From positions 186,001-250,000 of the forward strand of contig NZ_SLXS01000002.1 of assembly GCF_004340785.1 (NCBI RefSeq): a DNA stretch of 64,000 nt. The letters run 5' to 3'. Positions 16,322 to 61,016 of the stretch are shown one piece after another. The DNA is from Tumebacillus sp. BK434. GTDB taxonomy: Bacteria; Bacillota; Bacilli; Tumebacillales; Tumebacillaceae. How positions within the stretch are numbered: position 1 is the first letter of the stretch; every line of letters starts with the position of its first letter. Under the pieces are notes generated by a model. That model searched no databases, was not told the origin of the DNA, and saw nothing but the letters and a program-made list of their open reading frames with translations. The position numbers and the translations under genes were made by a program.

Positions 16322-16341
16322 ACGACAGGCGGGGATGCATT

Positions 16342-42211: not shown

Positions 42212-42240
42212 TTGGAAATATACGTGAAATAGGGTATGCT
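42212..42240 (+). promoter_or_regulatory. Candidate promoter of the GT39-like gene
   Basis: TTGGAA (42212–42217), 17 bases, TATGCT (42235–42240). Confidence 0.5.
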
Positions 42241-42280
42241 TACAAAAAGTACCATGAGAACTGCAGAGGGGGAGAATACG

Positions 42281-43579
42281 GTGCTGCGAAAGATGGGGGT
42301 TCCGGTTGGGATCGCACTGATTTTGCTGTTTTCCCTGTGGATTCGACTTGATTATATTGCCGGGCTGGAAGTGAAGCCTGTCTCAGATATGGAGGACTAT
42401 GATCAGCGGGCGGTGAAGCTGGCGGAGGAAGGCACGTTTGCGACCGATCATGTACAAGGTGCCACCTATCGCGCCCCCGGATACGTGATATTCCTCGGCG
42501 GTTTGTATGAGTTGTTTGGGCACAAATACCGCATGGTCTACGGCGTGCAGTCGCTCCTGTCGGTGGCGACGCTGTTTGCGGTCTATCTCATCGGCAGGCG
42601 GTTGTTTGACACCAAGGTCGCGATGCTGGCTTTGCTGATCGGTGCTCTGTATGTGCCGCTGATCGGGTATTCGGGCGTGTTGCTGACCGAGTCGCTGTTT
42701 CTCGCGCTCTTTACCTATGCTCTTTACGCATTTCTTGTCGGGTCGCAAGACGGCAACCTGTACGGATACCTGATCGCCGGCTTGCTGTTTGGCCTCGCCA
42801 CGCTGACCCGCTCGATCGCGCTGCTGCTGCCGGTGATCGCCGTCGTCTGGCTAATGCTGGCGAACAAGACGTTCCGCCTGCCCCGCCCGACATGGATCAG
42901 GCTCGGGCTGATGGTACTGGTGATGGCGGCGGTGATCGCTCCGTGGTCGATTCGAAACTATATGGAACAAAAACAATTCGTGCTCGTCGACACCACGGCC
43001 GGGCTGAACCTGCTGATCGGCAACAACGACTACGCCAACGGATTTTTTAGCGATAAGATCTACAGCCTGCCCGCGTTCAAAGAAGCGATGGCCGGCACCA
43101 AAACGGACGCAAAACGCGACGCGATCATGAAAGCTGCCGGCAAGCAGTGGATTCTCGACCATCCCGGCCACTTCGCCGAACTGACCTGGATGCGCTTCCA
43201 GATGTATCTGTCTGCGAAAAAAGACTGGGTCGCCGCCACCCACGAGTGGGAGCGCATCCCGCTGTACTCGGACACTTTCCATGCCCGCTACCAATGGACC
43301 TTGATGTCCTTGGGGCTGGTCGGCGTCGTGCTCGCCTGCTGGCGTGACCGCCAAGCGCTCTTGCCCGTCTTGGTCGCCGGGTATTTCCTCGGCGCGATCT
43401 CCGTCTTTTTCGTGCAGACGCGCTACCAATTGCCGGCAATGCCGTATATCATTTTGTTAGCAGCCTATGTGCTGCGCGTGATGGGGTCAAGCCCGCGAGC
43501 CGCCGTGCCGATTTTTGCAGCCGTCTTTGGGCTGAGCTTGTGGCTGGAGGAACTCGCTTTGAACTATAACGTCTTGTAA
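42281..43579 (+). CDS. GT-C membrane glycosyltransferase (GT39/ArnT-like)
   Basis: 432 aa, about ten membrane helices. The first outside loop has the acidic pair typical of GT39/PMT_2 (VSDMEDYDQRAVKLAEEG), followed by YRAPGYVIFLGGLYELFG. GT-C enzymes use a polyprenyl-phosphate sugar and act outside the membrane. It is a distant paralogue of 47031. GTG 42281 is preferred because AGAGGGGGAG lies eight bases before it and the proposed promoter rules out the upstream start. It could use the pentose donor made by the 48392–51406 genes. Confidence 0.82.
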   Translation: MLRKMGVPVGIALILLFSLWIRLDYIAGLEVKPVSDMEDYDQRAVKLAEEGTFATDHVQGATYRAPGYVIFLGGLYELFGHKYRMVYGVQSLLSVATLFAVYLIGRRLFDTKVAMLALLIGALYVPLIGYSGVLLTESLFLALFTYALYAFLVGSQDGNLYGYLIAGLLFGLATLTRSIALLLPVIAVVWLMLANKTFRLPRPTWIRLGLMVLVMAAVIAPWSIRNYMEQKQFVLVDTTAGLNLLIGNNDYANGFFSDKIYSLPAFKEAMAGTKTDAKRDAIMKAAGKQWILDHPGHFAELTWMRFQMYLSAKKDWVAATHEWERIPLYSDTFHARYQWTLMSLGLVGVVLACWRDRQALLPVLVAGYFLGAISVFFVQTRYQLPAMPYIILLAAYVLRVMGSSPRAAVPIFAAVFGLSLWLEELALNYNVL

Positions 43580-45380: not shown

Positions 45381-45425
45381 GTAAACTACTTCGTGAATGA
45401 TAGACCGCCTGGGGGAGGAACGGAT

Positions 45426-46712
45426 ATGAATAAGACACTGGGGCAAAAAATAAGGGAATGGCGCATGCGCAAAGGGATTACACAGACCGAACTGGCAGAG
45501 GGTCTTGTGACTCCGAGCATGATCTCACAGATCGAAAGCGACAAAGCGAATCCCTCCTTTAAACTGCTGGAAGGCATTTCGCGCAAACTGGACGTGCCGA
45601 TCGATCAGTTCTTGATGGATATGCAGGATAAGCTGGAACATGACACTCGCCACAAGCTGGCGAAGTCTTTGATTTCCGCGAAACAATATGAAAAAGCCAT
45701 CCAAGTCCTCGAAGGCTTGGCGGACGAACCGGCTGTTGACCGCAACGAAGTGCGCAAAGAACTCGCATCGGCGTATATTTATGCCAAGCAATTCGACAAC
45801 GCCACCCGTCTGCTCGAATCGATGCTCGAAGAAGTCGCGCTCGACAAAGACCGCTCCCATGCGGTGGAACTCCTGCGTTGGCTGGGCCGCGCCAAGATGG
45901 AGCAGCATGACTATGTCATGGCGAAGCACTATTTCCAACAGGCGATGAAGGAACTGGCGAAAAGCGAATCGCTCGACAACAGCACGAAAGGTTCCTTGTA
46001 CCACAACTTTGCGGCCACGCTTGCGTACCTGGGGGAGGTACAGGAAGCGATCGAGTATTACAAAAAAGCGATCACGGCGCTGCAAGGCACACCGAATCTG
46101 CTCCAGATGGGCAGAACGTATACAGCTTTGGCGACCGCTTACTACCATATGAACGAATACGCACAAGCAGCAGATACCACCCGCACGGCGATCACGATGT
46201 TCCGCAGCGTCAACAACCGCTACGACGAAGTGGTGGCGAAGAAAAACTACGGCATTCTGCAGTACGAGCTCGGGCAGTATGACGATGCGATCGCCCAATT
46301 CGAAGAGTGCGCCGAAGAGTTCAAAGCGATGGAAGAAATGGATCTCGTAGCGAACGTCTACGGGGAGATCGGGACCGTTTACTTCCGCCGAAAGAACTAT
46401 CAAGAAGCTGAAAAATGGTGTTTCCGCGCCCTCGAACTGCTCGGCAAAGAACATCGTGAACGCGCGTTCGTCTACCGCACGATGGGCGTGATGTATCAAG
46501 AACTTCAAAACTTCGAAAGAGCATTGGAGTATATGTTAAGTTCTGTGGAACTTTTTGAAAAATACGGCTTGCACGTCGAGGCCTCCAAATGTTATTCTCA
46601 TATTGTAAGCATCTACGAGGCGCGCGGAGAGTTAGATAAGGCGTCTGAGTACATGCAAAAAATGACTTCCACTATGCGGGAAGGACTAAGGGTGAGGGGG
46701 CTTTACCTGTGA
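45426..46712 (+). CDS. RRNPP-type peptide-sensing regulator (HTH + TPR), receptor B
   Basis: 428 aa. XRE-type HTH (LGQKIREWRMRKGITQTELA, then VTPSMISQIESDKANPSF) and about eight TPR repeats (for example FAATLAYLGEVQEAIEYYKK and YGILQYELGQYDDAIAQFEE). It is a close paralogue of 26929. Its stop codon overlaps the GTG of a small exported-peptide gene by three of four bases, as in NprR–NprX or PlcR–PapR units. GGAGGAAC lies eight bases before the ATG at 45426; the open frame extends upstream to a GTG at 45393 without a ribosome site. Confidence 0.87.
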   Translation: MNKTLGQKIREWRMRKGITQTELAEGLVTPSMISQIESDKANPSFKLLEGISRKLDVPIDQFLMDMQDKLEHDTRHKLAKSLISAKQYEKAIQVLEGLADEPAVDRNEVRKELASAYIYAKQFDNATRLLESMLEEVALDKDRSHAVELLRWLGRAKMEQHDYVMAKHYFQQAMKELAKSESLDNSTKGSLYHNFAATLAYLGEVQEAIEYYKKAITALQGTPNLLQMGRTYTALATAYYHMNEYAQAADTTRTAITMFRSVNNRYDEVVAKKNYGILQYELGQYDDAIAQFEECAEEFKAMEEMDLVANVYGEIGTVYFRRKNYQEAEKWCFRALELLGKEHRERAFVYRTMGVMYQELQNFERALEYMLSSVELFEKYGLHVEASKCYSHIVSIYEARGELDKASEYMQKMTSTMREGLRVRGLYL

Positions 46713-46951: not shown

Positions 46952-46981
46952 ATCGCCGGGTGTATCTCGGCGATTTTTTTT
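46952..46981 (+). terminator. Terminator of receptor/peptide operon B
   Basis: ATCGCCG/CGGCGAT with a 9-nt loop and eight T. The T run may double as part of the -35 region (TTTGCG, 17 bases, TAGAAT) of the next operon. Confidence 0.85.
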
Positions 46982-47030: not shown

Positions 47031-48395
47031 ATGCCTATGATCAAGCTAAGAAAACCGCTCTTTACGCGGAGCACGACCGAATGGGTACTCTTTTTGCTGA
47101 TTACGATCGCAGCCGTTCTGCTGCGCATGCTGTGGATGTTGAAAGTGCCGAACGCGCCGGTCTATGATTTTCAAACGTATCATGAGATTGCGGTCAACAT
47201 CGCCACCGGGTACGGGCATACCTTCCTCGGCGAACCGATCGCCTTCCAAGGCATGGGCTATCCGACCGCGCTGGGCCTGTTTTACAAGCTGACCGGGGAG
47301 ACGTCCGTCCTTTGGGGCAAGGCGTTCAACCTGCTCTTGTCGACCGCCACACTGCTGCTGACCTATCCGATCTTTCGAAAGTTGACGAACAGCTGGAAAC
47401 TTTCGATCGCAGCCTACGCACTGATCGCTTTTTTGCCGAACTATATCGCGTATGTCAGCGTGATCGGGGCGGAAGTGTTCCTGGCGTTTCTGTTTGCGGC
47501 TGTCGTCTATTTGCAGCTGGCATCGTTCAACAAATGGGTGCGCTGGCCGCTGCTCGGCATTTTCATCGGGCTGGCCGCGCTGACCAAGCCGGTGTTCCTC
47601 GTCTATCCGGTGGTGGCGGCTGCCGTACACTATCTTCGTGAAAAAAATCTCAAATCCACTTTGGCCTTCGTCCTGACCACCGCGCTCCTGATGATGGTGA
47701 CGGTGGCGCCTTGGACGTATCGCAACTACCAGAAATATGACTCGTTCATCCCGGTGTCGTACAATTCGGGCTATGTATTATACCTGAATAACAATGCCAA
47801 TAATGTGAATGGGGGCTGGATGCCGCTGAAAGACGCGGCGGCGTCGCCGGAGCTGCGCGCGCAGATCGACGAGATTCTCGAGCACGGCCAGCGCAGCGAA
47901 AAATTGGCCTATGAGCTCGACCCGCTGCTGAAGGCGGAAGGCAAGCGCTGGATCTTGTCGCATCCGCTGGACTTTGCGAAACTTGGTATGCTGCGCGTAC
48001 AGACCACGTTCTTCAACGGGGCGTGGGACATCGGCAGCTGGGCGATGAACGGGCTGTATCCGGGCGTCCCGCAGTGGACGGTCGAGCTGGAGCGCGATCT
48101 GAAAGCGTTCCGGGCTGTGTCGGATGCGATCTTGAACAGCATGAACGGGCTGGCGTTTGCTTTTGTGCTGCTGGCGGCGTTTCCGGTCCTGCGTTCCCTG
48201 TTCCGGCGCGAGGAGAAACTGCCGGTCGGGATGATCCTGCCGACGGTGAACGTGAGCTTTTTCATCCTCGTCTATTTTGTGTTCGAAGGTCAGGCCCGCT
48301 ATAACTTCCCGGTGCTGTTCTTGCTGGCCGTCTGTGCCGTGCTGGCGCTGCATAGCATCTGGCGGGGTGTGTCATCTTGGAGGTGTCAGAATTGA
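47031..48395 (+). CDS. GT-C membrane glycosyltransferase (GT39-like), first gene of the DPA-like operon
   Basis: 454 aa with about eleven membrane helices. VYDFQTYHEIAVNIATGYGH in the first outside loop carries the acidic residue expected of the catalytic site. LTKPVFLVYPVVAA and APWTYRNYQKYDSFIPVS match the PMT_2/GT39 pattern. It would transfer a sugar from polyprenyl phosphate to a surface acceptor. Its stop overlaps the TTG start of the UbiA-like gene (TTGA), so it is translated together with enzymes that make a polyprenyl-phosphate pentose. An arabinosyltransferase role is the simplest inference. Confidence 0.84.
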   Translation: MPMIKLRKPLFTRSTTEWVLFLLITIAAVLLRMLWMLKVPNAPVYDFQTYHEIAVNIATGYGHTFLGEPIAFQGMGYPTALGLFYKLTGETSVLWGKAFNLLLSTATLLLTYPIFRKLTNSWKLSIAAYALIAFLPNYIAYVSVIGAEVFLAFLFAAVVYLQLASFNKWVRWPLLGIFIGLAALTKPVFLVYPVVAAAVHYLREKNLKSTLAFVLTTALLMMVTVAPWTYRNYQKYDSFIPVSYNSGYVLYLNNNANNVNGGWMPLKDAAASPELRAQIDEILEHGQRSEKLAYELDPLLKAEGKRWILSHPLDFAKLGMLRVQTTFFNGAWDIGSWAMNGLYPGVPQWTVELERDLKAFRAVSDAILNSMNGLAFAFVLLAAFPVLRSLFRREEKLPVGMILPTVNVSFFILVYFVFEGQARYNFPVLFLLAVCAVLALHSIWRGVSSWRCQN

Positions 48396-49285
48396 AACAA
48401 CAAGCGGTTCGCGCCGACGCGAACGTCGTGCTGCTGTTGTTCCAGCAGTTGCGTCCGAAACAGTGGACGAAGAATCTGCTGGTCTTTGCAGCTTTGATCT
48501 TTTCCTTTCAGATTGCCAATGTCGATCTGCTGCTCCGCTCGGTGGTCGGGTTCTTCCTGTTCTGCTTTGTGTCGGGGTGTGTGTATATCTTAAATGATTT
48601 TGTCGACCGCGAAGCGGACCGGCAGCACCCGGAGAAGCGTTTCCGTCCGATGGCGTCAGGTGCGCTCAATCCGTATCTGGCGCTGACGTTCGGCTTGGTG
48701 CTCTTGGCGGTGTCGATCGCCTGGGGGCTGTATCTGGAGCCGCTGTTTGGCATCCTGCTGTTCGTCTATTTTGTGATCAACGTTGCCTATTCATTCAGGC
48801 TGAAACACGTTGTGATCATCGACGTGATGATCATCGCGTCCGGCTTCGTGTTTCGCGCCATCGGCGGGGCGCTGGTGATCGAGGTGCCGTTCACCCCGTG
48901 GTTCCTGCTCTGCACGATGCTGCTCGCCTTGTTCCTGGCGATCTCGAAGCGCCGCCATGAGCTGCTGCTGTTGCAGAACAACAAAGGCTCGCACCGCAAA
49001 GTGCTGGAGAGCTATTCGCCGGAGCTGCTCAACCAGCTCAACTCGATCGTGATCACGGCGACGATCATGAGCTATGCCCTGTTCACGTTTACTTCGGGGC
49101 GCACGATCCATCTGATGTGGACGATTCCGCTGGTCATCTACGGGATCTTCCGCTACTTGTACCTGATCTTCATGGAGGAAAAGGGCGGGAAGCCGGAGCG
49201 CGACCTGTTTCAGGACAAGCACATCCTGGTCACCGTGCTGCTGTACGGGCTCGCCGTGGTCGTGATCTTGAAGTATTTTGAGTAA
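48392..49285 (+). CDS. Decaprenyl-phosphate phosphoribosyltransferase-like UbiA family protein
   Basis: 297 aa, about nine helices. LRPKQWTKNLLVFAALIFS near the N terminus, NDFVDREADRQHPEKRFRPM (the first Asp-rich UbiA motif) and YSFRLKHVVIIDVMII are characteristic of the Rv3806c group, which joins phosphoribose pyrophosphate to polyprenyl phosphate. Other UbiA proteins prenylate quinones or haem, but the adjoining DprE1/DprE2 genes decide for this one. TTG 48392 is chosen because GGAGG lies eight bases before it. Confidence 0.88.
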   Translation: MKQQAVRADANVVLLLFQQLRPKQWTKNLLVFAALIFSFQIANVDLLLRSVVGFFLFCFVSGCVYILNDFVDREADRQHPEKRFRPMASGALNPYLALTFGLVLLAVSIAWGLYLEPLFGILLFVYFVINVAYSFRLKHVVIIDVMIIASGFVFRAIGGALVIEVPFTPWFLLCTMLLALFLAISKRRHELLLLQNNKGSHRKVLESYSPELLNQLNSIVITATIMSYALFTFTSGRTIHLMWTIPLVIYGIFRYLYLIFMEEKGGKPERDLFQDKHILVTVLLYGLAVVVILKYFE

Positions 49286-49304
49286 TCCTTGGGGGACACA
49301 ATCG

Positions 49305-50672
49305 ATGCTGAAACAGAAGGAAAGCCTGATCGCCGGCTGGGGCAACCATCCGGCGGAAGTCTGCCACGTCTATCGTCCGGACCGGGTGCGGGACATCACC
49401 GAACTGCTGGCGGCGGGAGGAGAACACAATTATATTTCCCGCGGGCTGGGCCGTTCCTACGGCGACACCGCGCTCAATGCAGGATCGGGCGTTTTGCTGC
49501 ACACGCAGTTTGCCCGCTTTTTGCATTTTGACGAGGAGCAGGGCATTTTGGAGTGCGAGGCCGGGGTGTCGTTCGAAGAGATCATCGAGCATTTCCTGCC
49601 CCGCGGCTGGTTCCTGCCGGTCACACCGGGCACGAAGTTCATCACCGTCGGCGGCGCGATCGCCAATGACGTGCACGGCAAGAATCACCACGTCGACGGC
49701 ACGTTCTCCGAGCATGTGCTCGACCTGAAGCTTTTGCTCGCGTCCGGCCGGATCGTCCACTGCTCGCGGGAGGAGAATGCCGACCTGTTCTACGCGACGA
49801 TCGGCGGCGTCGGCCTGACCGGGGTGATCCTGTCGGCACGCTTCAAGCTGATCCCGGTGGAGTCGGCGTACATCGAAGTCGATTACATCAAGGCCCGCAA
49901 CCTCGACCATGCGTTTGAGCTGTTCGCCAAGACGAACGACCAGTACCAATACTCGGTGGCGTGGATCGACTGCCTGTCCAAAGGCGACCGCCTCGGCCGC
50001 TCCGTGCTGATGCTCGGCAACCATGCGCCGGCGTCGAAAGTCAAGCAGGCCGACCCGTTGCGGATCAAGAAGAAGCCCAAGCTGAACGTGCCGTTCAACT
50101 TCCCGTCGTTCGTGCTGAACCAGCTGTCGATCCGCGCGTTCAACTTCGGCTATTACAACGTCCTGAACAAGAACGCGGTCGGCAAGATCGTCGACTATGA
50201 CACGTTCTTCTACCCGCTGGACAGCATTCACAACTGGAACCGCGCGTACGGCAAAAAAGGGTTCGTGCAGTACCAGGCGGTGTTTCCGCCGGAGACGAGC
50301 CGCCAAGGCTTGACGGAGATGCTGAAGCGCTTGAGCGAATCGGGCCGCTCGTCGTTCCTCGCCGTGCTGAAAAGCTCCGGCGAGCAGAGCAAAGGACTCC
50401 TGTCCTTCCCGTTCAAAGGCTACACGCTGGCGCTCGACATCCCGGTCCATGACGACGGCTTGTTCCCGTTCCTGCGCGAGCTCGACGAGATGGTGATGGC
50501 GCACGGCGGCCGCATCTACCTTGCCAAAGATTCGGAAGCCGACCCGGCGACGTTTGCGCAGATGTACCCGACGCTCGGCAAGTTTCAGCAGATCAAAGCG
50601 AGCGTCGACCCGAACAACGTGTTCTCCTCCTCACAGGCGCGGAGACTCGGGATTGTGGAGGAATCGCGATGA
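49305..50672 (+). CDS. dprE1: DprE1-like FAD-linked decaprenylphosphoryl-ribose oxidase
   Basis: 455 aa, FAD-binding PCMH-type oxidoreductase. RGLGRSYGDTALN and VTPGTKFITVGGAIANDVHG (then KNHH, residues about 120–129) match the FAD site of mycobacterial DprE1. It oxidises C2 of the polyprenyl-phospho-ribose, and DprE2 then reduces the ketone to give the arabinose donor. At the position of mycobacterial Cys387, the benzothiazinone target, the residue is Ala376 (GYTLALDIPV). ATGA overlap with the next gene. Start at 49305 after TGGGGGA. Confidence 0.9.
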   Translation: MLKQKESLIAGWGNHPAEVCHVYRPDRVRDITELLAAGGEHNYISRGLGRSYGDTALNAGSGVLLHTQFARFLHFDEEQGILECEAGVSFEEIIEHFLPRGWFLPVTPGTKFITVGGAIANDVHGKNHHVDGTFSEHVLDLKLLLASGRIVHCSREENADLFYATIGGVGLTGVILSARFKLIPVESAYIEVDYIKARNLDHAFELFAKTNDQYQYSVAWIDCLSKGDRLGRSVLMLGNHAPASKVKQADPLRIKKKPKLNVPFNFPSFVLNQLSIRAFNFGYYNVLNKNAVGKIVDYDTFFYPLDSIHNWNRAYGKKGFVQYQAVFPPETSRQGLTEMLKRLSESGRSSFLAVLKSSGEQSKGLLSFPFKGYTLALDIPVHDDGLFPFLRELDEMVMAHGGRIYLAKDSEADPATFAQMYPTLGKFQQIKASVDPNNVFSSSQARRLGIVEESR

Positions 50673-51406
50673 AAAACGTACTGATCCTGGGCGCCACTTC
50701 GGGCATCGCCAAGGCGCTCGCTTATTATTTTGCGGAACAAGAGCACAACCTGCTGCTCGCCGGGCGCGATCTGGAGGAGCTGCAGCTGATCGCGCAGGAC
50801 ATCAACATCCGCCACGGGGTGGAAGTGACGGTGCACAAGTTCGATGCGCTCGATTATGACGGCCACGCCGATTTCTTCACCACCTGCCTGGAAGCGGCGG
50901 GCGAGCTGGACGGTCTCGTGCTGGCCTACGGTTACCTCGGCGACCAGAAGCGGGCGGAGAACGAGTTTGCCGAAGCGCGGCGCGTGATCGAGACCAACTA
51001 CCTCTCCGCCGTGTCGGTGCTGAACATCGCCGCCAACTATTTTGAAACGAGAAAGGACGGCTTCCTCTGCGTGCTGTCTTCGGTGGCGGGCGACCGCGGG
51101 CGTCAGAGCAACTTCATGTACGGCTCGGCCAAAGGAGGCCTGTCCCTGTACCTGCAAGGCCTGCGCAACCGCTTGAGCAAATCGAACGTGAGCGTGCTGA
51201 CCGTCAAGCCGGGCTTTGTCGACACCAAGATGACGTTCGGGCAGCCGGGCATGTTTTTGGTCGCGCAGCCGGAAGCGGTGGCGAAAGCGATCTACAAGAT
51301 GATCCTGAAAAAAAAGGACGTCGCCTACACGCCGTTTTTCTGGCGCTACATCATGCTGATCATCAAATCGGTTCCGGAGCGCATCTTCAAGCGCCTGAGC
51401 CTGTAA
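50669..51406 (+). CDS. dprE2: DprE2-like short-chain dehydrogenase
   Basis: 245 aa SDR. Cofactor motif LILGATSGIAKALA and AGRDLEEL, catalytic Ser138 region (LSSVAGDRGRQSNFM) and Tyr151-x3-Lys155 (YGSAK). VLTVKPGFVDTKMT is also typical of DprE2. It would reduce the 2-keto intermediate to polyprenylphosphoryl-arabinose with NAD(P)H. It is overlapped with dprE1, so the two are made in balance. Confidence 0.9.
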   Translation: MKNVLILGATSGIAKALAYYFAEQEHNLLLAGRDLEELQLIAQDINIRHGVEVTVHKFDALDYDGHADFFTTCLEAAGELDGLVLAYGYLGDQKRAENEFAEARRVIETNYLSAVSVLNIAANYFETRKDGFLCVLSSVAGDRGRQSNFMYGSAKGGLSLYLQGLRNRLSKSNVSVLTVKPGFVDTKMTFGQPGMFLVAQPEAVAKAIYKMILKKKDVAYTPFFWRYIMLIIKSVPERIFKRLSL

Positions 51407-51422
51407 GCGGGGCGGCGGCGGG

Positions 51423-52391
51423 ATGAAAGCAAAATCGCAGGAGCTGATGGCGGGGAAAGGGCAGAAGCTCACGTCGCGGATCATCACCGGCATCATGGTC
51501 GGGGTGGTCGTCTCGGTGCTGTTTTTCCTCTGGGGCGATGTGCGCGACGTGAAGGATGTTATCTTCTCGATCTCGTGGTACACGTACGTGCTGGCGGTGG
51601 TGACCACGCTGGCCTCGTATTTTGTCCGTTTTTTCAAATGGCAGTTCTTCTTGAAGGTGCTGCAGATCAAGGTGCCGTGGAAAGACTCGCTGAACATTCA
51701 TTTCATCGGCCTGTCGATGTCGATCACGCCGGGCAAGCTCGGCGAGCTGCTCAAGTCGTATCTGTTGAAAAATACGGCCGGGGTGGAGATGGCGCGCTCC
51801 GCCCCCGCCGTCTTCACCGACCGGCTGACCGACCTGTTTGCGATGCTCTGCCTGGTCGGGGTCGGGATCTCCCTGTTCGCGTTTGGCAAGCTGGCCTTTT
51901 TCATCGTGCTGGGCGGACTGCTGGTGATCACGCTGGTCTTGCAGTCAAAGCCGATCTCGCTGCGGGTGATCGAGTGGCTGGCGCGGATTCCCGTTTTGAC
52001 GAAGCACAAGGGCAGTATGTTGACGTTGTACGAGAGCACGTTTGAGCTGCTGCGCTGGAAGCCGCTCTTGTTCGCGACCTTGCTGTCGGTGATCGCGTGG
52101 TTCATGGAGTGCATCTCGCTCTATGTGCTGATCGTCAACCTCGACCTCGGCTTGACGCTGACCCACGTCGTGTTCATCTTCTCGCTGGGCACGGTGGCGG
52201 GCGCTCTGTCGATGCTGCCCGGCGGGCTTGGCATCGCGGAAGGCAGCATGACCGGGATGTTCATGTACTTTGGTCTCGCCAAAGGCACCGCCGTGTCGAT
52301 CACGCTGCTGATCCGCCTCGTGACGCTGTGGCTCGGGGTGCTGATCGGAATCGTCATCTTCTTTGTGAAACGCAAAGGATATATGGGCTAG
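51423..52391 (+). CDS. Flippase-like membrane protein (LPG synthase TM region/UPF0104)
   Basis: 322 aa, about eight helices. SITPGKLGELLKSYLL, a charged cytoplasmic loop ending APAVFTDRLTDL, and MLPGGLGIAEGSMTGM are the marks of the UPF0104/AglD-like family often placed beside polyprenyl-sugar genes. A role in moving the polyprenyl-phosphate pentose across the membrane is plausible from its position but unproven. There is no catalytic MprF domain. It is the last gene of the operon before a terminator. Confidence 0.85.
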   Translation: MKAKSQELMAGKGQKLTSRIITGIMVGVVVSVLFFLWGDVRDVKDVIFSISWYTYVLAVVTTLASYFVRFFKWQFFLKVLQIKVPWKDSLNIHFIGLSMSITPGKLGELLKSYLLKNTAGVEMARSAPAVFTDRLTDLFAMLCLVGVGISLFAFGKLAFFIVLGGLLVITLVLQSKPISLRVIEWLARIPVLTKHKGSMLTLYESTFELLRWKPLLFATLLSVIAWFMECISLYVLIVNLDLGLTLTHVVFIFSLGTVAGALSMLPGGLGIAEGSMTGMFMYFGLAKGTAVSITLLIRLVTLWLGVLIGIVIFFVKRKGYMG

Positions 52392-52397
52392 CGGAAG

Positions 52398-52422
52398 GAG
52401 TCTCGCGCAGAGGCTCTTTTTT
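52398..52422 (+). terminator. Terminator of the DPA-like operon
   Basis: GAGTCT/AGGCTC (one G·U) with a 7-nt loop and a T run. Confidence 0.75.
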
Positions 52423-52466: not shown

Positions 52467-52496
52467 GATAGAGTGGAGAGAGGAGTCGTGACTTTG

Positions 52497-54092
52497 ATGC
52501 GCAAACTTTGGAATAAATTGTTAGCCGGGGCTGTGCTTGGCCTGGCCGTGCTGACAGTTGGAATATATTCGCCGGCGTATGCGGGCACGAGCTCGCAGCC
52601 GGATGTCTATGTGGACGGCGTGAAATTGCCGTTCGATGTACAAGCGGTGAATGACCACGGACGGGTGCTGGTGCCGCTGCGGATGATCTTTGAAAGCATC
52701 GGCGCGGAAGTGACGTGGGAAGCGAAGACGTCGACGGTGGTCGGCAAGCGCGACGGCGTGACGATGCGCCTGCCGATCGGCAAGAAGACGGCGACGGTCG
52801 GGGGCAAGACGGTGACGCTCGACGTGCCGGCCAAGCTGATCAACGGCCGGACGATGGTGCCGGTGCGCTTTATCAACGAGTCGTTTGGCAATCTGGTCAA
52901 GTGGGACCCGGCGGGCGTGGTGGACATCACGTCGTTCAACTCGCCGCGTGTGCGCGTGATCGGCAGCGACGCGAAGCTGGTCGAAGGCCAGGTCTACAGC
53001 GTGCAGCAGGAGATCCTCCAGAAGGGGATCGTGCAGAAGGTGCAGCAGATGGCCGGGTACTCGTTCAACGGCCCGGTCTGGGTCTACCTGTCGAACAGCG
53101 ATGCGGGCTACAAGGACGCCTTGATCCGCGAGACGGGCGCTTCGTCGACCGAAGCGGCGCAGATGGCGAGCTGGGCGAACGGCGTGGCGTACGGCGACAC
53201 GATCGTGCTGCCGCTGCACAAGCAGGAGTCCGACTACGGGCGCGTGCGCACGATCGCTCATGAGCTGTCTCATGTGCTGTTCAACCAGAACGAAGTCGAT
53301 CTGCCGAGCTGGGTGAACGAAGGGTTCGCGTGGCAGGCGTCGCTCGACATCGCCTTTGAAAACGGCCCGCAAGTGCTGCGCGGCCGTCAGGACCTGCTGG
53401 CTCGCGACGAAGTGCTCGGCGCGCTGAACAACGGGGCGTACCGGCCGCTGATCAACGGCAGCTACTCGAAGCTGGTCGCGCTGGGCGAGGCGAATTACAA
53501 CCTCGAACTGCAGGACTACTTGGCGATGCAGGAGCTAAAGGCGCAGTATGGCCAAGACAAGGTGCAGGCGTACCTGAAGCGCTTTGCGGGGACGGGGACG
53601 GCCGATGCGAACTTCCGCGGCGAGTTTGGGCTGTCGATGACCGAGTTTGGCGACGCCTTCCGCAGCAAGCTGGCACAGGAGCTGCAGGAGCAGAGCAAAG
53701 GCGTGGAAGTGACGCTGAACGTGACCAGTCAGTTTCAAGGCACCTTCTCCGTGCTCGGGCAGAACAGCTCCCAGTGGAAGCTGTTCAACCTGACGCCAGG
53801 GCAGCACACGCTGCGCATCTACAAAGACGGCCGGCTGGAAGGCGCGACCGTCCGGGATGCGATCGGGGAGAGCGACCCGACGACCAACATGGTGTTCCTT
53901 GCGATGGAGCCCGATGTGCCGGTCACCGAAGGAGGCAAGCGCATCGAGTATGCCGGTGCGGCGCTGATGGATTCGTTTGGCGAGTATGCGTTCCTGAACG
54001 TCTGGAAGACCGATTCGAACGGCAACGACCAGTTCCCGGAGACGAACCGCGTGCTCGGGGTGGAGATCGTAAATATAAAAGCGATTCATTAA
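52497..54092 (+). CDS. Secreted stalk-domain HExxH metallopeptidase
   Basis: 531 aa. Signal peptide (AGAVLGLAVLTVGIYSPAYA), a copper-amine-oxidase-N-like domain (about 35–145, RVLVPLRMIFESIGAEVTWE and MVPVRFINESFGNLVKWD), then a gluzincin-type peptidase domain with HELSH at 255–259 and Glu275 in SWVNEGFAWQ (MA-like). The C-terminal 150 residues are beta-rich without a known name. It is probably a wall-associated peptidase; the substrate is unknown. ATG 52497 follows AGGAG by ten bases, and a TTG one codon earlier is possible. Confidence 0.85.
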   Translation: MRKLWNKLLAGAVLGLAVLTVGIYSPAYAGTSSQPDVYVDGVKLPFDVQAVNDHGRVLVPLRMIFESIGAEVTWEAKTSTVVGKRDGVTMRLPIGKKTATVGGKTVTLDVPAKLINGRTMVPVRFINESFGNLVKWDPAGVVDITSFNSPRVRVIGSDAKLVEGQVYSVQQEILQKGIVQKVQQMAGYSFNGPVWVYLSNSDAGYKDALIRETGASSTEAAQMASWANGVAYGDTIVLPLHKQESDYGRVRTIAHELSHVLFNQNEVDLPSWVNEGFAWQASLDIAFENGPQVLRGRQDLLARDEVLGALNNGAYRPLINGSYSKLVALGEANYNLELQDYLAMQELKAQYGQDKVQAYLKRFAGTGTADANFRGEFGLSMTEFGDAFRSKLAQELQEQSKGVEVTLNVTSQFQGTFSVLGQNSSQWKLFNLTPGQHTLRIYKDGRLEGATVRDAIGESDPTTNMVFLAMEPDVPVTEGGKRIEYAGAALMDSFGEYAFLNVWKTDSNGNDQFPETNRVLGVEIVNIKAIH

Positions 54093-54165: not shown

Positions 54166-54246
54166 TACTGGCAAACTTGACCGAAAGGCAAGGGCGCAAA
54201 GCCACGGGCCTACTGCAGGAATGCGATGGCGGCCGGGCTGCCGAAT
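54166..54246 (+). promoter_or_regulatory. Cyclic di-GMP-I (GEMM) riboswitch
   Basis: The aptamer core reads GGCAAAC, a CCGAAAGG tetraloop hairpin, GGCGCAAAGCCACGGGCC, then GGCGGCCGGGCTGCCG. It has the invariant CGCAAAGCCACGGG segment, the GAAA tetraloop and its receptor, and P1 (GGCA/TGCC). The gene starts 32 bases later, and no terminator or clear anti-terminator lies between, so translational control is likely. Confidence 0.92.
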
Positions 54247-54277
54247 GTTTCGACACGATAAAAGGAGGAAGTATCAC

Positions 54278-55393
54278 ATGAAAAAGTCTGCTTTTCTAGC
54301 GCTGTTGATGGCTGTTGCGCTGACCACCGCTCCGGCGGCTGCGCTGGCCACTGACGGCACCACCACCCCGCCGACCGCTCCTGCGGAAGACGAGACGACC
54401 ACCCCGCCGCCGACGGCGTGCGATCCGCAAGATGACGACGATCAGGATGAAGACGATACTGAGGATGATACCGATACAGGTGAAGACGATGGCAGCACGG
54501 ATGATGGCGCTACTGACGACGGCACCACCGTGCCGCAAGCGAGTAAAAGCTCCCCCGGTAAAAGCGGCTCCGCACCGGGCAAAGGAAACGCTGACAAAAA
54601 CGGCAAAGGCCAATCCGGCAAAGATTCCAAAGGCAGCGTGAAGAACGGCGGCACCAAGGATGACGATGCGACCTCTGCCTGCGGCAGCATCGAAGGCAAG
54701 AAAAAAGGCTGGTCGAACAAGATCAAGAACATTTTGAAGCACCTCGAAGCGGGCAAAAAAGTCGGTAACCTGCAGCAAAAGCTGGCCGAACTGACGCTGT
54801 GGGCCAAGTCGGAAAACGGCTCACAGTCGGACCGCGATGCCTTGCTGGCGATCCTGGAAGCGCTGCAGGCGAAGGAAGAGGTCGGGGAAGCAGCACCGGA
54901 CGACTTGATCATCCTCGCGGAGACGCAAGACCGGCTCCAAGACACGGCTGCTGCCGTCTCCACCTTGGAGCGCGCCCTGCTGCTCGACTACAACCACCAG
55001 GAAGTCTACACCGAGCTCGCCAAAAAGCTCGCCAAAAAAGGCGACAAAGGCGTAAAAGTCTATGTCAAAGGTGCCAAGCCGTCTTTTGACGTCAAACCGG
55101 TCGTCCAAAACGGCCGCACCCTCGTGCCGGTGCGCGCGATCGGTGAATCGCTCGACGCGCAAGTGCTCTGGGACGAGAAGACGAAAACGGTCACTTTGAT
55201 CAACAAGAGCGGCAAGAACGTCACGCTGAAGCTCGGCAACAACATCGCGATCGTCGACGGCAAGCAGATCAAGCTCGACGTCCCGGCGCAAACGATCGGC
55301 GACCGCACCATGGTACCGCTCCGCGCCCTCGGTGATTTCTTCGGCCTCACCGTCGGCTGGGAGAACGCTTCGCAGATGGCAACATTGAAATAA
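54278..55393 (+). CDS. c-di-GMP-riboswitch-controlled secreted stalk-domain protein
   Basis: 371 aa. Signal peptide (SAFLALLMAVALTTAPAAALA), a disordered Thr/Pro then Asp/Glu-rich region (about 25–145, for example DDDDQDEDDTEDDTDTGEDD), a helical domain (about 150–260) and a C-terminal copper-amine-oxidase-N-like domain (TLVPVRAIGESLDAQVLWDE, TMVPLRALGDFFGLTVGWEN). These stalk domains are thought to help wall attachment. The riboswitch upstream ties it to the motile-sessile decision, so an adhesin or matrix role is a fair inference. AAAGGAGG precedes the ATG. Confidence 0.88.
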   Translation: MKKSAFLALLMAVALTTAPAAALATDGTTTPPTAPAEDETTTPPPTACDPQDDDDQDEDDTEDDTDTGEDDGSTDDGATDDGTTVPQASKSSPGKSGSAPGKGNADKNGKGQSGKDSKGSVKNGGTKDDDATSACGSIEGKKKGWSNKIKNILKHLEAGKKVGNLQQKLAELTLWAKSENGSQSDRDALLAILEALQAKEEVGEAAPDDLIILAETQDRLQDTAAAVSTLERALLLDYNHQEVYTELAKKLAKKGDKGVKVYVKGAKPSFDVKPVVQNGRTLVPVRAIGESLDAQVLWDEKTKTVTLINKSGKNVTLKLGNNIAIVDGKQIKLDVPAQTIGDRTMVPLRALGDFFGLTVGWENASQMATLK

Positions 55394-56109: not shown

Positions 56110-57246
56110 CTAGACGCGTTGCGGATGGCTCTTACGTTTGCCCAGCAGGCCGACGGCGAGTTCGCCGCTCGTTTCCGCTTCCTGGCGCAGGGCTTCGACG
56201 TGCGGCTGCATCATCACTTCGTAATGCTCCATGTTCTCGATGCAGTCGAGGATGCGGGCGCGCAGTGAGTCGTAGGTGACGCTGGCGACCGAGTCGATCT
56301 CATAGTCGTAGCCGACGCGCTGCACGAAGCGGTCGATCTTCGGATCGTAGGAAAGCGACACAAACGGCACGCCACAGTGCGCGGCGAGGATCAGCGAGTG
56401 CAGGCGCATCCCGATGATCAGGTCGGTGTTGGCGATGATGTTGGCGATGTCGCGGAACGAAAACTGGCGATTGAGCAGCACGGCGCGTTCTTTCATATAA
56501 GACAGCACGCGCTGCGAAGCGCCGACGTCGCCCGGATACTGCATCGGGATGAACACGACCTGCCAACCGTCGCGAACGAGCGCGTCCGCATTTTCGGCCA
56601 GCACTTTATAATACGTATTGTTCGACGGCCAGTTGCGGATGGCGATCCCGGCGACCTTCTTGATGCCGCCTAAATAGCTCGTCTTCACTCCGAATTCCTT
56701 TAACATCTTCGCTCCGGCGTCTTTTGAAAAAAGTTCCGGGTCGATCGCAAACGCCGGGTCGGCCGTCACGTAGATCTCCGGTTTGGTCACGCCGTATTGG
56801 AGCAGGTCCTGGCGGGATTTCTCATCGCGGACGGTGATCAGGTTGACGTTGTTGACCACGCGGCGAATCAAGTTTTCAGAGAACGGCTTGGTGATCGGCC
56901 CGATGCCTTGTCCATAGAACACGATCGGCTTGCCGATGAACTGAGCCAGTTTGCAGATACCTAAATAATAGAGAATGCTGCGGCCGCCCGTGACGTCCTG
57001 CAGCAAGCTTCCTCCGCCCATGACGAGCATGTCGCATTTCATCAGCTCCCGGATGATCACGCCGAAGTTCCAGCGATTCACCGCTTTGATGCCAAAAAGC
57101 GCTTCGGTTCGGTCGGGCTGGTTGGAAAGCACGATGATCTCCGCGTCAGGCTGCCGTTTGCGGATGCTGGACATGATCCCGTACAAGACGGTGTCGTCCC
57201 CTAAATTGTCAAATCCGTAATAGCCGGATACCAGAATGCGAGGCAT
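56110..57246 (-). CDS. csaB: CsaB, polysaccharide pyruvyl transferase
   Basis: 378 aa. It transfers pyruvate from PEP to secondary wall polymer, creating the ketal that SLH domains recognise. Marks are LVSGYYGFDNLGDDTVLYGI at the N terminus, VMGGGSLLQDVTGGRSILYY, FYGQGIGPI and GMRLHSLILAAHCGVPFVSL. Its presence explains how the SLH proteins encoded at 14286, 17934 and 36850 are anchored. It forms a unit with the Spo0E-like gene on the same strand, but each has its own promoter. Confidence 0.95.
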   Translation of the reverse strand: MPRILVSGYYGFDNLGDDTVLYGIMSSIRKRQPDAEIIVLSNQPDRTEALFGIKAVNRWNFGVIIRELMKCDMLVMGGGSLLQDVTGGRSILYYLGICKLAQFIGKPIVFYGQGIGPITKPFSENLIRRVVNNVNLITVRDEKSRQDLLQYGVTKPEIYVTADPAFAIDPELFSKDAGAKMLKEFGVKTSYLGGIKKVAGIAIRNWPSNNTYYKVLAENADALVRDGWQVVFIPMQYPGDVGASQRVLSYMKERAVLLNRQFSFRDIANIIANTDLIIGMRLHSLILAAHCGVPFVSLSYDPKIDRFVQRVGYDYEIDSVASVTYDSLRARILDCIENMEHYEVMMQPHVEALRQEAETSGELAVGLLGKRKSHPQRV

Positions 57247-57343: not shown

Positions 57344-57456
57344 GCAAAACCTAGCGTCCGGCGCCCCTCCCCCGCTGGCAAAACCTGCAGCGGGTAAAAG
57401 GCGGTCTCCCGCTCCATATTAATTGAGGAGACCAGAAAAAAGGGGCAGTGACAGAG

Positions 57457-58689
57457 ATGAGCAAAAGGAGTCCGAACCGGAAACGTTTCTGGGTGGCCAG
57501 TTGGGTCGTTCTCTGTATCGCAGTTGCCTTCTCAGCAGGCGGACTCTACCAGTTTTACCGCGTGGCAACGCAAATATACGAGCCTCCCCCCACCGAGATC
57601 GCGGGTCCAAACGCAAGCCCGCAATCGAAGTTAAGTGATACTTCCACCCGATACTTGCACTACCTCCAGAGCGGCCCACGCGCTGGTTCCATAGACGATG
57701 GCACCGCCGGCAACCTGACAGGCGGGCAGACTGAGGGTCAAACTGGCAGTCTGTCCGGTCAACGAAACGGTGATTCCGCCGGCCATCTGACGGATGATCG
57801 GAACGGCAGACGTTCAAATCCAGAACCGGGATTCGTGAACCGTGCGTCTGGATTGGGGAGTCCATCCGGCGAACGCACGCTCTTTCCAAAGGCTGCCGGC
57901 CGGTCGGCAATTGTGGAGAAGAAAACGAAGAAAGTGGAGACGTTCCTGCTCTTAGGTGTCGATTCGCGGAAAAAGGGGGAGCAGGCGCGGGCCGATACGA
58001 TCATGCTGGCGACAGTGCCGGAAGCGGGGGGACGAGTGCATCTGATGTCGATCCCGCGGGACACGTATGTCAGCGTGGCCGGGCACGGGTATACGAAGAT
58101 CAACCACGCGATGAGCTATGGCGGGCTGCCCTTGCTCAAGCGCACGGTGCAGGATTTTCTCGGCGTGCCGGTCGATCACACCGTGCTGGTCGACTTTGTC
58201 GGCTTCCGCAAACTGGTCGACTTGATCGGCGGGCTCGACCTGAAAGCGGAAAAGACGATGCACTATGACGACCCGTCCGACGGCACCTCCATCCACATCG
58301 AACAGGGCCAAAAGCTCGCCACCGGCAAACTGGCGCTCGACTACGCCCGCTTCCGCAACGATGCTGAGGCCGATACGGGACGCATGCGCAGACAGCAGCA
58401 GGTGATTCGTGCTATGATTCAACAAGGAGGCAAACCGGACAACTGGGGTCGCATGTTTAAGCTGGCCGACATCGTCGGCGAACATGTGAAGACAGACGTT
58501 CCGCCCCGCGAGTGGGTGCGTCTGGTGATGTCCTACGCCTACAACCAACCGGATCAAATCAAAACGCTGCAGATCGACGGCGTCAACTCCATCTCCGAAC
58601 GGGACCAGCTCTGGTACTTTTTTGTGGGAGAGGGGGAGCGTCGGCGCATGCGGGGCGTTTTGGAACAACTGAGGCGAGGGAATGCATAG
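57457..58689 (+). CDS. LytR-CpsA-Psr family glycopolymer ligase with long linker
   Basis: 410 aa. One membrane helix (VASWVVLCIAVAFSAGGLYQ), an unusual disordered linker of about 100 residues (for example GGQTEGQTGSLSGQRNGDSA), then the LCP domain (about 160–400: FLLLGVDSRKKGEQARADTI, MSIPRDTYVSVAGHGYTKIN, LDYARFRNDAEADTGRMRRQ). LCP enzymes move polyprenyl-pyrophosphate-linked polymers onto peptidoglycan. It is followed without a gap by tagA. ATG 57457 is preferred over GTG 57448, which is too close to AGGGG. Two inverted repeats (57371–57394 and 57403–57433) lie upstream. Confidence 0.9.
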   Translation: MSKRSPNRKRFWVASWVVLCIAVAFSAGGLYQFYRVATQIYEPPPTEIAGPNASPQSKLSDTSTRYLHYLQSGPRAGSIDDGTAGNLTGGQTEGQTGSLSGQRNGDSAGHLTDDRNGRRSNPEPGFVNRASGLGSPSGERTLFPKAAGRSAIVEKKTKKVETFLLLGVDSRKKGEQARADTIMLATVPEAGGRVHLMSIPRDTYVSVAGHGYTKINHAMSYGGLPLLKRTVQDFLGVPVDHTVLVDFVGFRKLVDLIGGLDLKAEKTMHYDDPSDGTSIHIEQGQKLATGKLALDYARFRNDAEADTGRMRRQQQVIRAMIQQGGKPDNWGRMFKLADIVGEHVKTDVPPREWVRLVMSYAYNQPDQIKTLQIDGVNSISERDQLWYFFVGEGERRRMRGVLEQLRRGNA

Positions 58690-59424
58690 ATGGTAAACAT
58701 TTTAGGAGTGCCTTTTTCCACCTTGACGTTTGAAGAGACCGTCGCCCGTCTGCAGACGGCGATGACAAACGGGGATGACCCCCGGCATATCATCACAGCC
58801 AACCCGGAGATCATCATGATCGCGCAGGAAAACGAAACGGTGATGCGCCTGCTCCACGAGGCTGACCTTGTGACCCCGGACGGCATCGGCGCTGTCTGGG
58901 CGTCGCAGTATTACGGCACGAAGCTCCACGACCGCGTCACCGGCGCGGAGCTGTCGACCGCGCTGATCGAACACGCCGCTGCAGAGGGCCTCGGCGTCTT
59001 TCTGCTCGGCGCGTCCGAGTACTCGAACCGGCTCGCCGTCGCCAATCTTCAGAAACAGCACCCCGGCCTGCGCGTGGCCGGTCATGACGGCTATTTCAAG
59101 GATGAGGACACCGACTTCATCCTCCGCGAGATCAAGGCGTTCGGCCCGTCGCTGTTGCTCGTCGGGCTCGGCATGCCGCGTCAGGAGCTGTTCATCTCCG
59201 CGCACAAGGCGGAGCTCGCCGCGCCGGTGATGATCGGCATCGGCGGCGTGATCGACATCTTCGCCGGCACGGTGAAGCGCGCACCGAAAGTCTGGCAGAA
59301 CATGCGCCTCGAATGGCTGTACCGCCTGCTGTCCCAGCCCAGCCGCTGGCGGCGGCAGCTCGTCCTGCCCCGGTTCGTGATCACCGTCTTAACCGACAAA
59401 AACCGTGGAAAAGAGCGGAAATAG
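58690..59424 (+). CDS. tagA: WecG/TagA family glycosyltransferase
   Basis: 244 aa. TagA adds N-acetylmannosamine to undecaprenyl-PP-GlcNAc, the committed step to teichoic-acid-like wall polymers. Marks are ILGVPFSTLTFEETV, ITANPEIIMIA, TPDGIGAVWASQYYG and GLGMPRQELFISAHKAEL. The coding sequence begins directly after the LCP stop codon, so polymer start and attachment are made together. In SLH bacteria the product is a likely backbone for the pyruvylated polymer. Confidence 0.92.
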   Translation: MVNILGVPFSTLTFEETVARLQTAMTNGDDPRHIITANPEIIMIAQENETVMRLLHEADLVTPDGIGAVWASQYYGTKLHDRVTGAELSTALIEHAAAEGLGVFLLGASEYSNRLAVANLQKQHPGLRVAGHDGYFKDEDTDFILREIKAFGPSLLLVGLGMPRQELFISAHKAELAAPVMIGIGGVIDIFAGTVKRAPKVWQNMRLEWLYRLLSQPSRWRRQLVLPRFVITVLTDKNRGKERK

Positions 59425-60083: not shown

Positions 60084-61016
60084 ATGGCATACCAAGGCAA
60101 ATCGTACAGCAAACAGGTCAAGCCGCAGCCAAAGCCGAGAAAGAAGCTGCGCATCGGGCGCTTTTTGCTGATCCTCTTCGTGTTTGTGATCGTGATGGGC
60201 CTGACCGGGCTCGCCGGGTACGGCTTTTATCTGGAGCGCAAGGTTGTCGAGCGCACCGCAGCGACCGCACCGCTGGTGGAAGGGGAGCCGGTCAACGTGC
60301 TCCTGATCGGGATGGACCGCGATCCGGGCTCGGGCGAAGAGCAGCGGCGCTTGGGGATGAACACCGACACGCTGATCGTGGCGCAGATCGACCCGGCCGG
60401 GAAGCAGGCGGCTTTGCTGTCGATCCCGCGCGATACGCGGGTGCAGCTGCCGACGGGGATGGAGAAGATCAACGCGGCCTATTCGATCGGCGGGATGGAC
60501 CGGCTGACCCGGACGGTGGAAGAGCTGACCGGGCTTAAGATCGACCGCTATGTGATGATCGACTTCCAAGGCTTTCAGCAGGCGATCGACGCGGTCGGCG
60601 GCGTGGAGTTCGAAGTGGACAAGGAGCTGTACGATCCGGAAGGCAGAGTGCATCTCCAACCTGGCAAGCAGCTGCTGAACGGCTTAGAGGCGCTGACCGC
60701 CGTGCGCTTCCGTCATGAAGCGATGGGCGACATCGCGCGGGTGGAGCGCCAGCAGCGGTTCGTGGAAGCGTATTTGAGCAAAATACAACAGACCAACGTG
60801 GTGGACTGGATGAACTCGCTGCGCAAGATGAGCCAATCTTTGCGCACCGACATGTCGATCTCCGAGATGGGCAAGCTGGCGACGGCGATGCAGGGCGAAG
60901 GGGCGCAGTTCGAGACGCACACCGTGCCGGGGACGTTCTTAGAAGTATACGGCATCTCCTATTGGAAGGCAGATCCGGCGAAGTTGCAAGAGATTGTCTC
61001 TCAGATGAAAAACTAG
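60084..61016 (+). CDS. Second LytR-CpsA-Psr family ligase
   Basis: 310 aa. Basic cytoplasmic tail, one helix (FLLILFVFVIVMGLTGLAGY), then a standard LCP domain (VLLIGMDRDPGSGEEQRRLG, NTDTLIVAQIDPAGKQAALL, SIPRDTRVQLPTGMEKINAA, VRFRHEAMGDIARVERQQRF). The conserved arginines and aspartates that hold the polyprenyl pyrophosphate are present. It lacks the long linker of the first copy and may serve another polymer. GGGGTGA is the ribosome site. Confidence 0.92.
   Translation: MAYQGKSYSKQVKPQPKPRKKLRIGRFLLILFVFVIVMGLTGLAGYGFYLERKVVERTAATAPLVEGEPVNVLLIGMDRDPGSGEEQRRLGMNTDTLIVAQIDPAGKQAALLSIPRDTRVQLPTGMEKINAAYSIGGMDRLTRTVEELTGLKIDRYVMIDFQGFQQAIDAVGGVEFEVDKELYDPEGRVHLQPGKQLLNGLEALTAVRFRHEAMGDIARVERQQRFVEAYLSKIQQTNVVDWMNSLRKMSQSLRTDMSISEMGKLATAMQGEGAQFETHTVPGTFLEVYGISYWKADPAKLQEIVSQMKN

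Follow-up and report, generated by a model that had tools for sequence, protein, structure and literature searches.

We analysed a 64,000-nucleotide stretch of the genome of Tumebacillus sp. BK434 (contig NZ_SLXS01000002.1, positions 186,001 to 250,000; hereafter the window), and found that it carries a compact five-gene operon at 47031-52391 that very probably makes a polyprenyl-phosphate-D-arabinofuranose donor for use by an extracytoplasmic GT-C glycosyltransferase, a degree of confidence that covers the donor and its use and excludes the acceptor. D-arabinofuranose (D-Araf) is a rare sugar, found mainly in mycobacterial walls and in a few other glycans. If our reading is right, its presence in the envelopes of Bacilli would be new, possibly on the polymer by which the S-layer is anchored.

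The operon and its predicted pathway

The operon and the signals that flank it are as follows:

46952..46974, plus strand: T-tailed terminator-like hairpin at the end of the upstream HTH-TPR gene (consensus scan)
47031..48395, plus strand: GTC1, GT-C glycosyltransferase, predicted pentofuranosyltransferase (PF13231, AlphaFold model, alignment)
48377..49285, plus strand: predicted UbiA-family polyprenyl-phosphate 5-phosphoribosyltransferase, Rv3806c-like (NF008977, PDB 8j8j, motif)
49278..50672, plus strand: DprE1-type flavin adenine dinucleotide (FAD) oxidase (NF053785, PDB 4aut, conserved residues)
50669..51406, plus strand: DprE2-type SDR reductase with Ser-Tyr-Lys motif (NF053786, PDB 21gq, motif)
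51423..52391, plus strand: membrane protein with a PF03706 flippase domain, proposed to export the lipid-linked pentose (PF03706, MprF-like model, cluster conservation)
52393..52421, plus strand: terminator-like hairpin immediately 3' of the flippase gene (consensus scan)

A check of the open reading frames in the window confirmed the five plus-strand genes at the coordinates given in a preliminary description of this DNA, and family and structure matches bear out the identities proposed there (GT-C, UbiA, DprE1, DprE2 and a flippase-like protein). Separated in gene order by intergenic gaps of -19, -8, -4 and +16 bases, these genes form, on sequence grounds, one tight transcription unit between terminator-like hairpins, both of which are consensus matches only. 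The Pfam domains are, in operon order, PMT_2, UbiA, FAD_binding_4/ALO, adh_short and LPG_synthase_TM. The genome encodes a single UbiA of Rv3806c type, a single DprE1, and two GT-Cs of PMT_2 type that both lie inside the window; a gene set with such family and structure matches and a single genomic copy is far beyond chance. Both sequenced congeners have the same gene order, with 86-96% identity for the enzymes and the flippase-like protein and 78-89% for the GT-C. Directly upstream of the operon lies a gene for an HTH-TPR regulator (45393-46712), 95-97% conserved in the congeners, and the window contains a second one (26929-28218), the two being about 28% identical to each other.

The UbiA protein (302 aa) scores 272 bits against the NCBI equivalog model NF008977, 'decaprenyl-phosphate phosphoribosyltransferase' (cut-off 234), and matches the Rv3806c structure 8j8j with an E-value of 1e-45 in a PDB search. 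Its motif NDFVDREADRQHPEKRFRP at residue 73 is of the NDxxD type and aligns with that of Rv3806c, and counterparts of this motif have been probed by mutation (PMC11127046). Pfam finds the UbiA domain alone, with no fused HAD phosphatase domain.

The best NCBIfam model for DprE1 is its own equivalog, NF053785 (491 bits, cut-off 500), and the protein matches the mycobacterial DprE1 structure 4aut at E 5e-92, with conservation of Y60, H132, K134, W230, Q334, Q336, K367 and K418 (Mycobacterium tuberculosis numbering). DprE2 scores 194 bits against NF053786 (cut-off 250), its second-best model behind the general SDR model NF005489; its best PDB match is the DprE2 of 21gq (E 1e-30), and the Ser-Tyr-Lys motif of SDR enzymes is kept. 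In DprE1, the position of M. tuberculosis C387 is occupied by Ala, as in the other aligned non-actinobacterial sequences (Ser in one). More generally, at positions 387, 385, 314 and 228 the window protein has A, T, F and V, in agreement with other Bacilli and, for the most part, with other phyla; the aligned Actinobacteria have C, N, Y and S. With Ala in place of Cys387 (and N385T and Y314F besides), covalent benzothiazinones should not bind this enzyme at that position. A spore former outside the Actinobacteria, with a DprE1 that naturally lacks the benzothiazinone-bound cysteine, would be a convenient host for DprE1 chemistry.

GTC1 scores 27.7 bits against PF13231 (cut-off 26.1), and its AlphaFold model (predicted local distance difference test, pLDDT, 90.8) matches ArnT (Z 25.1), Pmt4 (25.1), AglB (22), AftA (16.6), EmbB (14.9) and AftB (13.4). 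For the predicted structure, these matches establish the GT-C fold and not the identity of the donor. The earlier statement that the set has a transferase of its own is supported. Asp46, which follows the first transmembrane helix, is nearly invariant in the alignment. Separately, on contig C124 of genome G012 (locus L153, 3964-9793), GTC1-like GT-Cs lie near a gene that resembles a GT2 donor synthase from a look at its sequence.

The flippase-like protein matches PF03706 (172 bits) and TIGR00374, and its model (pLDDT 84) matches MprF (7duw, E 1.6e-5), with no other match at E < 0.001.

In the pathway that we propose, UbiA would move 5-phosphoribose from phosphoribosyl pyrophosphate to undecaprenyl phosphate, as suggested by the equivalog-level match and the conserved motif, and a phosphatase encoded elsewhere would then remove the 5-phosphate, the genus having no cluster-type divergent PAP2. 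Close homology and the catalytic residues suggest that DprE1 would oxidise and DprE2 reduce C2, converting ribofuranose to arabinofuranose, while cluster position and fold point to the PF03706 protein, or another carrier, as the means by which the lipid-linked sugar would cross the membrane. GTC1 would finally place D-Araf on an extracytoplasmic acceptor, to which GTC2, described below, may add a second pentofuranose. This scheme is supported by other Bacilli, among them Metabacillus, Lentibacillus and Bacillus solitudinis, in which the genes for these enzymes lie together with one for a flippase or an SMR-like protein and, in most cases, with a phosphatase and a GT-C gene. D-Araf is made by the same enzyme logic in mycobacteria and for the pilin of Pseudomonas paraeruginosa (PMC11127046, PMC12369383). 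The donor logic that the preliminary description had drawn from UbiA, DprE1 and DprE2 is likewise sustained by homology, by conserved catalytic residues and by the clustering of the same set across Bacilli.

The second GT-C of the genome lies upstream of the operon:

42236..43579, plus strand: GTC2, second GT-C, probable second pentofuranosyltransferase (PF13231, 58 bits; 53% identity to a GT-C of G005)

GTC2 is 53% identical to the GT-C of the sister-genus genome G005, to which GTC1 is only 28% identical. The G005 protein is encoded in a UbiA / SMR-like / GT-C / divergent-PAP2 cluster devoid of DprE, whose UbiA is 50% identical to that of the window. Since this is the only UbiA of its type in the window genome, GTC2 probably draws on the lipid-linked pentose of the operon, ribofuranose or arabinofuranose, and the functional link earlier suggested between a second GT-C gene and the operon gains support from this sister-genus homologue.

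Clusters in other genomes and related systems

The preliminary description had proposed looking for the cluster in related genomes. Besides the two congeners, we found DprE1 in 14 of 398 genomes of Bacilli (7 of 145 genera), and the DprE1 pathway occurs in many phyla. The clusters of Bacilli are laid out as GTC-UbiA-DprE1-DprE2-SMR-dPAP2-GTC in three genomes of genus g17 (dPAP2, divergent PAP2), UbiA-DprE1-DprE2-Flip-dPAP2-GTC in Metabacillus and G063 (Flip, flippase gene), UbiA-DprE1-DprE2-Flip-dPAP2 in Lentibacillus and G145, UbiA-Flip-dPAP2-DprE1-DprE2 in G152 and G171, and UbiA-Flip-DprE1-DprE2-GTC in B. solitudinis; Kyrpidia and its relatives have GTC-DprE1-DprE2-SMR, with UbiA elsewhere in the genome. 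The SMR-like proteins sampled belong to EamA or Multi_Drug_Res in Pfam.

In the UbiA tree, the window groups with the clusters of genus g17 (Shimodaira-Hasegawa-like approximate likelihood ratio test, SH-aLRT, 95). Loci with and without DprE are interleaved in this tree, and the DprE module was therefore probably gained or lost more than once. Five UbiA loci with an SMR-like or PF03706 transporter and without DprE1 (L146-L150, in G005, G039, G046, G008 and G009) are probable ribofuranose versions of the system; that of G039 carries a separate HAD phosphatase. In the planctomycete loci L048, L049, L051, L052 and L053, UbiA is followed by DprE1 with no DprE2 nearby, and in L048 and L051 the gene that follows specifies a conserved protein, about 645 aa long.

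A general pathway composed of a phosphoribosyltransferase, a flippase, a GT-C and optional epimerases was published in 2024 (Kelly et al., PMC11127046). In that study, DprE1/E2 homologues, which its authors expect for Araf, are reported in candidate systems of Araf-containing glycans, and mention is made of a locus in Bacillus where epimerases or GT-Cs are multiple. As this general pathway and a case of pilin arabinosylation in Pseudomonas paraeruginosa, whose genes include ubiA (PMC12369383), are both published, we regard the operon as a Bacilli form of a known pathway. What distinguishes this form is the PF03706 protein, the lack of a fused phosphatase and the wall-polymer genes nearby.

The three-component system of Citrobacter (GT136, PMC11127046) also encodes a phosphoribosyltransferase, an epimerase module, a flippase and a GT-C together, but in this prototype the HAD phosphatase is fused, the flippase is of the MATE type and the GT136 transferase includes a carbohydrate-binding domain. 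The operon of the window lacks a phosphatase, encodes a PF03706 protein in the flippase slot, and has a short GT-C of PMT_2 type that is devoid of a carbohydrate-binding domain. The mycobacterial decaprenyl-phosphoryl-arabinose pathway (Rv3806c, Rv3807c, DprE1, DprE2, Emb/Aft) shares the first enzyme, the epimerase pair and GT-C-fold acceptor enzymes. In the window, by contrast, DprE1 belongs to another clade and has no Cys387, the operon includes no phosphatase, one small GT-C stands in place of the Emb/Aft set, and there is no evidence of a galactan. The P. paraeruginosa system (PSPA7_6245-6251, TfpW) similarly combines UbiA, partners and a GT-C for D-Araf outside the Actinobacteria; unlike in the window, the acceptor is a type IV pilin and the pilin locus is where the GT-C is encoded. 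GtrA and a divergent PAP2 are present in the Pseudomonas loci that we examined. Nod-factor arabinosylation in Azorhizobium (noeCHOP) also involves UbiA, DprE1-like and DprE2-like genes, and has a different acceptor. New here are the divergent PAP2 as likely 5-phosphatase, the transporter slot filled in Bacilli by a PF03706 or SMR-like protein, and the link of GTC2 to a DprE-less cluster.

A candidate 5-phosphatase

The earlier remark that a phosphatase for the 5-phosphate is missing from the window holds, because the genus has only a YuiD-like PF02681 and the PAP2 matches of the genome lie elsewhere. A profile search for a dedicated phosphatase gave no PF02681 or PF01569 match in the window; the genome has one YuiD-type PF02681 and seven PF01569 (PAP2) matches, all outside it. 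We did not take the PF02681 protein at C3:35503 for the missing enzyme, since it resembles the widespread YuiD type (165 bits) and not the short cluster type (98-102 bits). PAP2 genes 77 kb downstream (G000:C2:327576-329889) were inspected and no link to the operon was seen. A query with the HAD protein encoded next to UbiA in G039 found nothing in the genome at E 0.001, a search without positive control and therefore weak evidence.

When 61 relatives were searched, only three genomes had the short form of PF02681 (98-102 bits), beside UbiA in all three, and the longer-scoring YuiD-like form is widespread and is the sole PF02681 form in the genus of the window. Most clusters of Bacilli and many of those in Proteobacteria include this short divergent-PAP2 subfamily (PF02681, DUF212), and the sampled dPAP2 proteins were confirmed as PF02681 by Pfam. 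A census of 102 loci, many of them close relatives so that counts are not independent, gave a divergent PAP2 near UbiA/DprE1 in 22, a HAD protein in 30, an enlarged, perhaps HAD-fused, UbiA in four, and two phosphatase types together in none. From this distribution, the short subfamily is likely to be the 5-phosphatase of polyprenyl-P-phosphoribose. The cluster comparison offers testable roles for two membrane families that are poorly understood: for this subfamily as the 5-phosphatase, and for PF03706 as a polyprenyl-phosphate-pentose flippase. The short form was located at L040:13067-13489, L045:13112-13534 and L034:8326-8736, and near UbiA in L069, L074, L079 and L098.

Acceptor, alternatives and neighbouring genes

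Downstream of the operon, the window contains genes of wall-polymer context:

56110..57246, minus strand: CsaB-type polysaccharide pyruvyltransferase (PF04230)
57448..58689, plus strand: LytR-CpsA-Psr (LCP) wall-polymer ligase (PF03816)
58690..59424, plus strand: TagA/WecG-type N-acetylmannosamine transferase (PF03808)
60084..61016, plus strand: second LCP protein (PF03816)

CsaB, LCP and TagA adjoin the operon in both congeners too, and csaB and tagA are among the core genes for making secondary cell wall polymers (PMC6030368). Elsewhere, a WecA/TagO-type gene and TagA adjoin the g82 cluster, a pyruvyltransferase that of Lentibacillus and an LCP gene that of B. solitudinis. In g17, g82, Lentibacillus and the Kyrpidia-type genomes, SLH proteins are encoded next to the clusters, a neighbourhood that is suggestive only, because genomes of this kind often have many SLH genes. 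It is therefore plausible from the neighbourhood, as had been predicted, that arabinofuranose would be found on the wall polymer or the S-layer. As the acceptor we favour, at about even odds, the pyruvylated secondary cell wall polymer or an S-layer glycan, which would be modified on side chains, and not an arabinogalactan of mycobacterial type. A literature search covering part of the literature found no report of D-arabinose in a wall polymer of Bacilli.

Several observations weigh against our reading of the operon. The DprE1 and DprE2 scores both fall under the NCBI equivalog cut-offs, and no dedicated phosphatase gene was found in the genus. GTC1-like enzymes also occur in G012, a genome without this UbiA, so that GTC1 alone is no proof of an arabinose donor and was dropped as such; its family may serve other donors. 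The clusters of Vibrio, Glaciecola and Gynuella carry PF03706 and GtrA genes together, which makes the flippase role uncertain. Lastly, the cluster of Metabacillus is part of a polysaccharide locus of nonulosonate type, among Wzx-like, NeuB and UDP-N-acetylglucosamine 2-epimerase genes, and the acceptor may accordingly differ between species. As to origin, mycobacteria employ the same three enzyme families, and the preliminary description had called the set 'actinobacterial-type', but a recent horizontal transfer of actinobacterial arabinogalactan donor genes into this bacillus is highly improbable. The DprE1 phylogeny that it had proposed as a check (82 rows picked by similarity to Bacilli, with Actinobacteria thinly sampled at four rows) places the window inside a 14-row clade of Bacilli (SH-aLRT 96) and the actinobacterial rows on their own branch of length 1.33. 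Constraining the genus to group with Actinobacteria is 30.5 log units worse (approximately unbiased test, p-AU 0.010). On this placement and test we rejected an actinobacterial DprE1 lineage, and with it the earlier label; the residues at 387, 385, 314 and 228 that separate the window from the aligned Actinobacteria argue in the same direction.

It is also improbable, though less so, that the pathway ends at or mainly uses polyprenyl-P-ribofuranose, with DprE1 and DprE2 yielding another epimer or acting partly and ribofuranose or a mixture being displayed. Ribofuranose systems probably exist nearby, since the sister lineages G005, G008, G039 and G046 have UbiA clusters without DprE1; the locus of the GTC2 homologue is among those without DprE, and the prototype GT-C takes both ribofuranose and xylofuranose (PMC11127046). 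Against this, DprE1 and DprE2 are both present and adjacent, keep their catalytic residues and are linked across Bacilli. For the export of the donor, we consider it possible, if rather unlikely, that an unlinked GtrA or SMR-like protein is the carrier and that the PF03706 protein moves another lipid: MprF, its only solved fold relative, was captured with lysyl-phosphatidylglycerol, and PF03706 and GtrA co-occur in some gammaproteobacterial clusters, those of Vibrio, Glaciecola and Gynuella, where a universal mutual exclusion of PF03706 and other transporters fails. It does hold in the Bacilli loci examined, which have either PF03706 or an SMR-like gene and never both, and the PF03706 gene shifts position within the cluster yet remains in it. 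The strongest competitor, to which we give somewhat less than an even chance, retains the donor pathway and directs it to an exopolysaccharide, lipid, flagellin, pilin or other secreted protein. It finds precedents in the pilin of P. paraeruginosa (PMC12369383) and the O antigens of Citrobacter (PMC11127046), in addition to the Metabacillus locus, and the window has an O-antigen-ligase-like gene (14972-16321) and a GT4 gene (16342-17478); on the other hand, the closest conserved neighbours of the operon are CsaB, LCP and TagA, and SLH proteins lie beside the clusters in several lineages of Bacilli.

Returning to the wall-polymer acceptor, we tentatively advance a broader proposal, which as a whole is doubtful: S-layer Bacilli would put D-Araf on their S-layer-anchoring pyruvylated polymer via a PF03706 (MprF/AglD-type) flip, and the short PF02681 (DUF212) would be the general 5-phosphatase in Bacillota and Proteobacteria, with HAD proteins instead in Bacteroidota.

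The O-antigen-ligase-like and GT4 glycosyltransferase genes (14972-17478) adjoin genes for SLH proteins and are possibly an S-layer or surface glycan locus. Four proteins with the PF07833 domain (copper-amine-oxidase N-terminal-like) are encoded at 3799-5520, 40566-42041, 52473-54092 and 54221-55393; their other domains are LysM/M23, S41 protease, peptidase-like or none, making PF07833 a repeated module in the region.

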